Positions 51,114-53,792 of a stretch of DNA of 64,000 nt are shown one piece after another. The notes beneath the pieces were generated by a model that saw only the letters and a list, made by a program, of their open reading frames with translations, made no database searches and was not told the origin of the DNA. The position numbers and the translations under genes are program-made. How positions within the stretch are numbered: the first letter of the stretch is position 1; each line of letters begins with the position of its first letter. This DNA is from Colius striatus (lineage: Eukaryota > Chordata > Aves > Coliiformes > Coliidae): positions 40,465,211 to 40,529,210 of the forward strand of contig NC_084789.1 of assembly GCF_028858725.1 (NCBI RefSeq), given 5' to 3'.

Positions 51114-53792
51114 TCAAGTAGTGGTTTCCTTATATGATGGAGGAGGAGACCCATTTCCAGTTCCATTTCTGGTCATCTCATTCATTAATCTGCGGGTGTT
51201 GAGCTTTTCTCTGGTAATGGTTCCTAAAATACACTTGTAAACTATATAAATTATCATCAACAGTATAACAAACATAATTACATATTGGATGACCGAGGAA
51301 ATCCACCCAGAGACCTGGAGCCCCAATGAATCAAATATTGCTCCTATCCAATTATGTTGAGCTTCTTCTTCAATTTCTTTGGTTTCGTTTTCAACCTTTT
51401 CCAATTGTAAAATATCTTTTTCTACTTCGATTGTCATGTTTGGAATATGGATACAGCAGTGATCAATTCTTTTGCTCAGGTAACCACAGACCCCATGTTC
51501 CCGTAGCAGCAACATATCTAAGGCCATTCTATTCTGCAGTCATTCTGCTAGTTGCCTGTAGCTGCAAATTCATATCCTTAAACCCTTTCTTGGTGGCTGC
51601 TGTTAATCTTTCAGTCTGGCCCAGTAGCTTATACAACATTTCCCTATTACGGTAGGATGCAACCTGTGCAAACAAAGACTCTAAAGCCCAGCCAAATTTT
51701 ACTCCATCACTTGGTTCATGCCACTCATCTTCTACCTTGATATCATCACCTATTTCCCTTTTCTTCCGAGCTATCCTCGTTTCTAATTTAGATTGTCTCC
51801 AAAATGGGCACAATGTGGGAACTCCCAATGTTATTTGAGTTACTGGACCATCAATTGGTAAATGGGTGGTCCATTGCCCATGACCCATAACCCAAACTAA
51901 GTTTCCTGGATTGTAGTGGATTTGCAACTAATGACCCTTTTTCCATACATCCCTTTCTCATGTACATCTCCCTTTATTTTGTCTTTAATCGTATGTTTGT
52001 ATCCCCGACATTCACACCCTCATTTCAGCAGAATTCTCACAGGGACTAAACCTATCTGACTCTCTGGGGAGTCACAAGTAAAAAATTTTCGTACAGTTCC
52101 ATATTTCTTTCTGATCTCTGGATGGTCTCACGGAAGTGTATGTAGCCATCACACTATCGTGAGTCTGATCTTTCTCCCCTGTCCATTGTATACACCATTG
52201 TACTGGACCTAGGTAACTATATGATTCCAACAAACCAGGTCCCCATACTGTGTCCCATTCATCTTCCAAAGATTGTTGTCGTGTAACATTCTGGCAGATC
52301 TCTTCATTCCTAATCTTTTCAACTTTTATTCTTGTGCTACTACACCAATATCCAATTATTGGAATAGTACCATCTACTGTACAGCAACCTTTAAAATTGC
52401 CACCTCTCCCATAAGGACCTGTTCTAACCCATCTATAATACCCCGGCAATGATCTACACTCTTTTTCCGTTAAATCCCCCTTTATTAAACACCCATTTAT
52501 CCACTCTTCATACTTTATTGATACTTGCCTGCAATTCCAAGTAAAATTAACAGAGGTTTCTGGCATGGTTGTTATTGGAATAATTCCCCAGGGTATAGGT
52601 TCACCTGCAGCCTGAGGTAGTGGCAAACATGCTGTAATCTTAGATACATTCTGAATCATTCCAAAATCTCTAATCAACCCGACCACTAAGTTTTCCTGTC
52701 CTTCATCTCCATGGAAGTTTATTGTCCCATTTCCTAGATCCCGTATTCTCCTTCGGCTATATTTGCCTCTAATTAATGATACTAACATCCTAGAGTGGGC
52801 CCACCACGCATCTTTGGCTATCCAACACCAATACATTCCTTCATCATCTGACTGTACGTCATTTATTATTAATACTATGGTGCCGCCTAACCTCTTCTCT
52901 ATCCGATATTTCCTTCCAGGCTGTATACTGCTATCTCCAAACCACCACCCAAAATCTGAAAAACTCATTCTGGGATTCACTTTACATGTTAAAATAACTA
53001 TTTTCCCTTTGTTGGCCCGATACACCCCTTGTGTGGCCCTAATTCCTTGATTCAAATGAGGTCGGCCCTGCACATTTCTTTTTCCATAATTAGAGTAGGG
53101 TCCACATACAACTACACATAGATATTGTCCATCCACCTTACCCAACAGAGGTTGAGTATAATTCAGCCCTCCTATCCCTCTGTTCCCCACATTCCACCAA
53201 CTGATTCCTTCCTCGATCCTGTCCCACAATCCTTGAGGTCCCATTTTCCACCATTTAACTTGAACCGGGGCTTCACATTCTCTTTGTGAAGTAAAAGCGC
53301 AGTTTTATCCTCAAGGGTGGGCCATCCCACATATCCATTAAAGCTATTTTTGGTATTACTTCTACTCCCTCCTGAATCGGGGACCAAGGTACTACTCTCA
53401 AATCTATTCGCTTATAATCAAAATTTTCCCGAATTAATACCAAACACATGTATACTCCTGCTTCTCCTAACGTTAAATTAGTCAATTGCAAGGTAACACT
53501 TCCTTTTTTGGGTGTCCTTATTCCAAACAGTAACAATACTTGCAGTCAATCTGGTTTGTTCTTGTTTCCAAATCGCAATTATTTCCTCGGCTCCAGCTCC
53601 TTGGTCATCAGCAATGTCACAGGTTAAATTGACATCCATCCGTTCCATGACAGTAACCACAGGTTCTGTAACAGTGACAAATACAAATCCATTGACCGAT
53701 ACCATTTTCAATAATATCAACAGTACAACAGTTAAGAATGCAGTTTTGCTCGAAATATCATTCGAGGGGGGGATACCACTTGGGTTTCCCAT
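51114..53792 (-). pseudogene. env: ERV-F env with N-terminal Ig-like domains
   Basis: ATG at 53792 is followed by a signal peptide (FLTVVLLILLKMVSVNG), three Ig-like domains (separate entry), then surface-subunit sequence rich in Cys (KITACLPLPQAAGEPIPW, TIPIIGYWCSSTRIKVEKI) to 52072. After stops and frameshifts (52071-51930) the frame 51927-51529 holds a furin-type site (ARKKRE). After another shift the transmembrane subunit (51527-51114) has MLLLREHGVCGYL, a CX9CC loop, the anchor and a tail ending SPPPSYKETTT. Frameshifts lie near 53540, 53300, 52000 and 51530. It overlaps the pol end, as is usual. Confidence 0.85.
52770..53680 (-). other. Three tandem Ig-like domains in ERV-F surface subunit
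   Basis: Domain 1: VNLTCDI (Cys codon at 53621), IIAIWK, then after a frameshift SVTLQLTNLTLGEAGVYMC (Cys at 53446), 58 codons apart. Domain 2: a Cys codon at 53277, VKWWK, and GKVDGQYLC (Cys at 53118), 53 apart. Domain 3: GKIVILTCKV (52986), FGWWFGD and NDVQSDDEGMYWC (52827), 53 apart. The Cys, Trp and D-G-Y-C pattern is that of immunoglobulin V/I-set folds. Domain 3 is the clearest and domain 2 the weakest. Confidence 0.75.

Follow-up and report, generated by a model that had tools for sequence, protein, structure and literature searches.

The genome of the speckled mousebird (Colius striatus; 1.212 Gb) carries, in a stretch of 64,000 nucleotides (C39:40465211-40529210; hereafter the window), an endogenous retrovirus (ERV) whose envelope gene, env, raises the question of what a set of immunoglobulin (Ig) domains is doing in front of the surface subunit (SU) of a retroviral Env protein. 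A first-pass annotation of the letters had placed three Ig-like domains in series between the signal peptide and SU and had offered capture of a host Ig gene as a possible origin. Comparison with further copies and relatives showed this to be an established Env architecture in a gamma-like ERV lineage of birds, which reads signal peptide, D1-D2-D3 or fewer Ig domains, RxxR, SU, RX(K/R)R and transmembrane subunit (TM).

The provirus lies on the minus strand and measures 8.8 kb from long terminal repeat (LTR) to LTR (50540-59356). Its env follows the order signal peptide, three Ig domains in series, RxxR, SU and TM, and is made up of the following pieces, the ends of D2 and D3 being approximate.

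53481..53957, minus strand: env piece 1, with leader, signal peptide and N-terminal half of D1 (alignment with relatives; family profile 5.3e-14)
about 53687-53390, minus strand: Ig domain D1, split over two frames
53276..53545, minus strand: env piece 2, in another frame, with the C-terminal half of D1 including FDYKR, the linker and the start of D2 (PD-L1 chains in PDB; V-set 0.0046)
53059..53368, minus strand: Ig domain D2 (family profile), with a frame change near its start and open from 53304 on
52768..53046, minus strand: Ig domain D3 (Pfam ig 1.5e-9, I-set 9e-7)
52741..52755, minus strand: RRRIR, a furin-like RxxR between Ig block and SU body that recurs as RxxR in relatives
52075..52695, minus strand: N-terminal part of the SU body including a variable cassette, homologous to SU of Ig-less bird Envs
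51532..51927, minus strand: end of SU, RKKR SU/TM cleavage site and start of TM (open frame; no Pfam match)
51117..51539, minus strand: TM with C-X9-CC motif, membrane anchor and tail (TLV_coat 1.3e-5; CX9CC)

One open frame (53304-52075, minus strand) spans D2, D3, RRRIR and the first part of SU. The conserved Cys codons start at 53621 and 53446 in D1, 53301 and 53118 in D2, and 52986 and 52827 in D3, giving Cys-Cys spacings of 175 bases (58.3 codons), 61 codons and 53 codons, respectively. The spacings of 58 and 53 codons initially given for D1 and D3 therefore stand, while the 53 codons given for D2 have to be replaced by 61. The non-integer spacing of D1 indicates a frame break inside this domain. 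The motif (D/E/A)(x)GxYxC returned five regular-expression matches, which include overlapping alternatives and so correspond to fewer sites. All lie within 52770-53680, no further match turned up in any of the six frames across the 64 kb, and none of 2000 mononucleotide shuffles of 52770-53680 gave at least three matches. In a Pfam search of the single open pieces, D3 matched ig above the cut-off (1.5e-9) and the C-terminal half of D1 matched V-set below it (0.0046); the N-terminal half of D1 returned nothing at E values up to 1, and D2 was not matched separately. Both halves of D1, and D2 too, were matched by a profile built up from relatives. AlphaFold2 predicted three confident Ig sandwiches, with predicted local distance difference test (pLDDT) scores mostly of 80-97 across the Ig cores, so the absence of an Ig fold that the first-pass annotation had named as grounds for dropping the idea was not encountered. 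The block thus combines the Cys-Trp-Cys core with GxYxC and the two-sheet sandwich of the Ig superfamily, and its Cys and Trp are conserved among aligned relatives. Cys positions, motif matches and profiles together bear out the three serial domains as first described.

The mousebird genome was searched with the D2-D3-SU piece of the window, yielding 374 candidates, 102 of which were scored, with open frames of up to 949 codons; since the query contained D2-D3, copies without an Ig block could be missed. Twenty-five copies were examined, comprising the 20 best matches and five others and hence not a random sample. Anchors for D1, D2 and D3 were present in 25/25, and all five anchors in 24/25, the remaining copy missing only the SU-start anchor within the stretch examined. 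D1 to D3 occupy one open frame in three of the 25, and a single predicted protein in relatives, confirming that the frameshifts reported inside D1 and before D2 are real and later than the fusion. The frame breaks of the window copy are damage to a normal arrangement, and with its block broken an intact head is probably not produced from this locus. The break pattern of the window copy (inside D1, and from D1 to D2) is also seen in L001 and L002, and several more of L001-L030 are broken within the same intervals.

Protein searches recovered 40 relatives (P0001-P0040) with labels including passerines, mousebird, kakapo, duck, emu and ostrich; many of them are automatic gene models, and they were compared at the protein level. 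The D1-grown profile detected at least part of an Ig domain in 28 of the 40. The 12 without a match divide into six that miss the SU start and are not judgeable and six Ig-less proteins in which the SU start is present (P0032, P0033, P0034, P0037, P0039 and P0040, with P0032 and P0037 being pol-env gene models). The fairest measure of the frequency of the Ig block comes from the 32 proteins found with an SU-TM query, where 20 have at least part of it (half of D1 in three cases), six have none and six are not judgeable. A private insertion, the other outcome that the first-pass annotation had considered fatal, is ruled out by the presence of the block in relatives found in this way. Three Ig domains occur in eight proteins (P0001, P0002, P0004, P0009, P0020, P0021, P0022 and P0024; D1 is partial in P0001, P0002 and P0009). 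Ig block, SU and TM stand in one predicted protein in P0020 (921 amino acids), P0022 (910), P0024 (928) and P0021 (827), and SU and TM likewise in the single-Ig and half-Ig relatives P0014, P0015, P0011 and P0012. The same SU body is shared by the Ig-less P0033, P0034, P0039 and P0040. A viral contig collection gave 16 pattern-matching stretches, none encoding a relative, and a protein-word search aimed at host proteins related to the Ig block yielded three entries, each of them an Env.

In an unrooted SU-TM tree, numbers of Ig domains are scattered; a branch with support 99/97 sets apart 17 proteins, of which 14 have half an Ig domain or more and three are not judgeable. Gain and loss are not distinguishable in this tree because a single-Ig kakapo protein groups with Ig-less proteins; judged from these sequences, D2 and D3 evidently come and go between lineages. 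An Env can, it appears, gain and lose whole host-derived domains, and natural relatives with three, two, one, half or no Ig domain ahead of the same SU represent a ready comparison series.

Ratios of nonsynonymous to synonymous substitution (dN/dS) were calculated codon by codon (Nei-Gojobori) between copies of two subfamilies (L002, L010 and L027 vs L025, L026, L029 and L030). Ratios were 0.08-0.12 in D3 (12 between-subfamily pairs) and 0.05-0.11 in D2 (nine pairs), values that are imprecise since synonymous sites approach saturation there (dS 1.3-3.2, leaving aside L029 for D2). The three D2 pairs with L029, whose D2 is a mosaic, gave 0.26-0.28. D1 gave 0.11-0.30 in the six pairs with D1 unbroken in both copies and 0.35-1.26 in the six with a broken D1, and the SU body 0.21-0.50 (12 between-subfamily pairs). 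Purifying selection between subfamilies was thus detected on D2, D3 and unbroken D1, which shows that the Ig block evolved as protein under constraint. Ratios within subfamilies were higher, at 0.15-0.82 in the pairs that allowed one and with few changes behind them, which is the pattern that decay of inserted copies would produce. The dS of D2-D3 (for D2 leaving aside L029) exceeds that of the flanking D1 (0.28-0.43 in unbroken pairs) and SU (0.22-0.48), pointing to an older split of D2-D3 than of their neighbors and to cassettes that seem to recombine. Virus lineages seem to have swapped D2-D3 cassettes, and in L029 the breakpoint would fall within D2 or next to it.

These results bear on whether the block is simply an artefact, either an accidental host exon or intron beside env or a wrong gene model. 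The automatic gene models behind many database proteins and the broken frame of the window copy would be in keeping with that view, which is nonetheless extremely improbable given 102 scored env matches in one genome, relatives labelled as many bird genera, one-frame copies within the mousebird genome, conserved Cys and Trp, and low dN/dS between subfamilies. A host gene beside env was likewise rejected, as was an artefact, through the genome copies, dN/dS and the one-frame copies.

With the block established as part of Env, the question becomes where its domains came from. A phmmer search of PDB with the raw window piece carrying the second half of D1 gave 21 top-ranking rows that are all PD-L1 chains (best E 2.1e-4), representing a single protein in variant forms, and the piece has a DYKRI stretch in common with PD-L1. 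For the D1 profile, the best 60 of 1136 rows (E up to 0.1) were mostly CD276, PD-L2 and PD-L1, with DIP-alpha, CEACAM, DSCAM, JAM and LRIG between them. A search of the whole mousebird genome with the V domain of human PD-L2 returned as best matches two host PD-L exons 20 kb apart on C40, one of which is PD-L1 by PDB search (2e-27), followed by three ERV D1 (E 0.08-0.38) and then the CD276 locus (0.65); the genome match L028 falls in a CD276 exon. A CD276 query found ten V exons besides the two PD-L exons, including CD276 (70% identity), and no ERV among its 14 scored candidates. Against these 12 host V exons, an incomplete panel, the D1 profile scored 45.6 and 38.3 bits for PD-L, 32.3 for CD276 and 8.6-30.6 for the others, placing D1 as a V domain nearest PD-L1/PD-L2 among the 12, with CD276 close. 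A PD-L exon ranked first for all four single D1 tried (of 12 D1 in the set). For phylogeny against host Ig families, a check proposed at the outset, the tree with the 12 exons contains a branch with support 92/93 that separates all D1, together with both PD-L, from the other host exons. All 11 aligned D1 keep the D-Y of the FDY(K/G) motif, and the pair aligns with ADYKR of PD-L1. In the accessible part of PMC6853875, D122, Y123 and R125 of PD-L1 are reported as PD-1 contacts, a numbering that was matched to the ADYKR stretch in this analysis.

Several observations weigh against a PD-L origin. The D-Y pair is missing in P0023 and P0027, identity of D1 to host PD-L is only 18-30%, CD276 is close to D1, hhalign puts the second PD-L exon barely above exon L040, and kakapo D1 prefers butyrophilin 2A1 (BTN2A1) in PDB. 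Furthermore, PD-L splits D1 in the 12-exon tree, so a single capture is not shown, and a tree with four host domains only, which has long branches, groups D3 with PD-L and D1 with CD276. D1 might accordingly derive from another B7/butyrophilin-type or a generic Ig gene, its PD-L likeness reflecting convergence or shared ancestry and its function being unrelated to PD-1. The low identities, the CD276 and BTN2A1 matches and the splitting of D1 would fit such a source, as would the resemblance of D3 to a generic I-set domain. It is judged unlikely in view of the PD-L exons of the same genome, which are the two best of the 12 for both the D1 and D2 profiles and come first and third for the D3 profile, and of the PD-L exon ranking first for every single D1 tried. 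The comparisons, taken together, make it well supported, although not proven, that D1 is a B7-family V domain nearest host PD-L1/PD-L2, captured long ago; the proposal of a captured host Ig gene is upheld in this narrower form. D1 was not filed as a PD-L orthologue because it is not followed by a C-type Ig domain: the B7 layout is V then C-type Ig on a membrane protein, and here D1 is followed by D2, D3 and SU.

The D2 and D3 profiles also score a PD-L exon first among the 12 host exons, weakly, and in PDB they match V-type PD-L2/CD80, again weakly, and I-set domains. Profile comparisons relate the three domains to one another (D1-D3 1.8e-8, D1-D2 3.8e-7, D2-D3 5e-4), and D2 and D3 are more remote Ig domains that possibly arose by duplication and divergence.

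The junction of the block with SU bears on what it might do. In 26 of 31 sequences an RxxR motif lies within a 17-residue interval that precedes the SU body, compared with 6.0% of background intervals, the interval having been placed after inspecting the sequences, which are related to one another. The 31 comprise 30 proteins and the window piece, with near-duplicates P0001, P0009 and P0018 dropped, and P0040 (N-terminal side too short) and six proteins without an SU start excluded. At the same place, three of the six Ig-less relatives have RMKR/RDKR, two have KMKR/KNKR and P0040 has none; given RxKR/KxKR in five of six, the Ig block may be younger than a cleavable segment at the N-terminus. 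The variable SU cassette of the three-Ig P0020 shares 41% identity with the P0035 cassette and visibly resembles the one in the Ig-less P0034, as against 19-33% identity with the cassettes of 12 other proteins of the Ig-bearing group. TM of P0020 is 51% identical to that of P0035 and 61-77% identical to those of the same 12. P0035 is without an N-terminus of its own, and its nearest neighbors in the tree are the Ig-less P0034 and P0033. One clear case, rather than statistics, thus points to an SU cassette common to a three-Ig Env and an Ig-less lineage.

The RxxR before SU, the variable cassette of SU itself and the coming and going of D2 and D3 lead us to read the block as an accessory head. 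In the overall interpretation preferred here, tentatively and at just under an even chance, a captured head of PD-1-ligand type, accessory and immunomodulatory, stands in front of a complete SU. Such a head would not be the basic receptor-binding domain; it would be displayed on infected cells and virions, or released by putative cleavage at RxxR. D1 would engage a B7-family counter-receptor, most simply PD-1, and could thereby damp lymphocytes or serve as a decoy, with receptor binding and fusion left to the SU body. Immunosuppression by Env has long been debated around a short TM motif, and a captured PD-1-ligand-like head would offer a direct, testable route by which Env could modulate immunity. 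The more specific proposition, an Env with a built-in checkpoint ligand in which a captured PD-L V domain, extended to a three-domain head and joined to SU at a furin-like site, serves as an agonist or decoy of PD-1 type, carried on virions or released, is possible but doubtful; if true, no PD-L-type protein of a retrovirus would have preceded it in the literature searched.

Alternatively, the Ig block may be an attachment module, that is, an N-terminal receptor-binding domain for a cell-surface Ig-family partner, which would make receptor use wider or stronger. Partnerships between Ig domains are common, and the block is conserved and variable in length. The accessible part of a review of gamma-type Env (PMC9967133) furthermore places the receptor-binding domain in the N-terminal half of SU and lists the receptor of avian leukosis virus subgroup C (ALV-C) as an Ig-family protein. 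Attachment is nonetheless judged unlikely, considering that Ig-less relatives have the same SU body (P0033, P0034, P0039 and P0040), that the single- and half-Ig relatives P0014, P0015, P0011 and P0012 have SU and TM in one protein, and that the variable SU cassette appears common to a three-Ig protein and an Ig-less lineage. The shared cassette and the RxxR would argue mildly against the Ig block as the sole receptor-binding domain, and the low dN/dS of D2/D3 seems unlike that of a fast-changing receptor head.

The RxxR directly ahead of SU would also suit a removable cap, in which the block is a self-like glycosylated prodomain over the SU apex that guards against antibodies or early triggering until it is removed at this site. 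N-glycosylation motifs N-terminal of the SU body number 4-8 in the six two-/three-Ig proteins counted and three in each of two single-Ig proteins, the RxKR/KxKR of the Ig-less relatives allows a cleavable segment older than the Ig block, and the Env leader of foamy viruses, which is cleaved by furin, is a parallel. A passive shield would need neither a PD-L-like D-Y motif nor a dN/dS near 0.1, and the cap is considered quite unlikely. Attachment and cap are both fair rivals, and relative to them the accessory PD-1-ligand-type head remains the preferred interpretation.

Membership of the gamma type was examined in TM. TLV_coat matched the TM piece of the window above the cut-off (1.3e-5), and was found in ten relatives, above the cut-off in P0022, P0027, P0031-P0034 and P0039 and below it in P0020, P0024 and P0026. 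Wherever a TM motif was found it was CX9CC (25 sequences, namely the window and 24 of P0008-P0040), with Tyr in place of the first Cys in one. In 23 of the 24 proteins the sequence ahead of this motif contained no CXXC, the remaining one being a pol fusion, and for lack of CXXC in SU the Env is called gamma-like and was not filed in the genus Gammaretrovirus. The accessible part of PMC9967133 allows CXnCC, yet also terms CX6CC invariant. Typical gamma-type Envs have CX6CC in TM and CXXC in SU, the latter being absent in alpharetroviruses.

As the first-pass annotation had supposed, no Ig-bearing retroviral Env of this kind, with an N-terminal Ig stack, was recognized in the literature searched (without bioRxiv preprints and most subscription papers). 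Retroviral capture of host Ig-family genes is known from single acute events, as with v-tcr of feline leukemia virus and other transduced host genes; the mousebird element is alike in such capture and differs in that the module is kept in a long-lived Env lineage. Gamma-type Envs such as those of murine leukemia virus (MLV) and feline leukemia virus (FeLV), EnvP(b)1 and the syncytins are alike in the SU-TM precursor, RX(K/R)R, a TLV_coat-like TM and, in its general form but typically with n = 6, a CXnCC motif, as far as the accessible part of PMC9967133 describes them, whereas the mousebird-type Env has a host-type N-terminal Ig block, CX9CC and no CXXC (23/24). In that review "immunoglobulin" appears twice, in at least one place about a receptor, and "Ig-like" never.

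A viral counterpart of D1 is De2, a separate PD-L1 homologue of the dolphin virus Tursiops truncatus gammaherpesvirus 1, which inhibits T-cell signaling; the accessible text of PMC9514091 describes De2 as the first PD-1 ligand from a pathogen. De2 is alike in being a viral protein with an N-terminal PD-L-type V domain and, by analogy, may serve as a precedent for viral capture of a PD-1 ligand. It is, however, a separate membrane protein of a DNA virus with 71% identity to host PD-L1 (PMC9514091), while the bird D1, at 18-30% identity to host PD-L, belongs to a retroviral Env. Chicken OVEX1 ORF3 is likewise a large env-like bird open reading frame (873 amino acids), set apart by its description: the accessible text of PMC2717909 contains neither "immunoglobulin" nor "Ig-like" and seems to list C(X)6CC as not found. 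Zebrafish Env38, an ERV Env, also acts between antigen-presenting cells and CD4 T cells; according to the accessible part of PMC10072453 it binds CD4 and class II major histocompatibility complex (MHC-II) via SU, and the Ig domains mentioned there are those of CD4.

The remainder of the mousebird provirus consists of the following features.

50540..51043, minus strand: 3' LTR (TG...CA ends), pairing with 58854..59356
53961..54989, minus strand: pol, integrase (rve 7.5e-17)
55199..57127, minus strand: pol, reverse transcriptase and RNase H (RVT_1 1.2e-28)
57393..58441, minus strand: gag, open in two pieces that overlap (57797-58441, and 57393-57851 with Gag_p30 3.5e-8)
58854..59356, minus strand: 5' LTR, pairing with 50540..51043

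The start of the pol piece 55199..57127 has a weak protease match in Pfam (RVP 0.22), and the first gag piece (57797-58441) has no Pfam match. The LTR pair is identical at 499 of 503 aligned bases, with one additional 1-base gap, and a GAGG 4-base target-site duplication flanks the provirus (50536-50539 and 59357-59360). Birds have a substitution rate near 2e-9 per site and year, at which the LTR divergence corresponds to an age of about 2 million years. The stretch adjoining the 5' LTR (58820-58853, minus strand) starts GTTTTCTGGCGACC, and a tract containing AAAAGGGGGG lies ahead of the 3' LTR (51044-51075, minus strand).

Two more ERV bodies occur in the window in opposite orientations, at 9622-11178 and 14160-15170 on the plus strand and at 27736-28746 and 31728-33308 on the minus strand. 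Their Gag_p24 and RVT_1 matches have near-equal scores, suggesting that they are perhaps two copies of one other ERV family. A further RNase H match is located at 3681-4724 on the plus strand.

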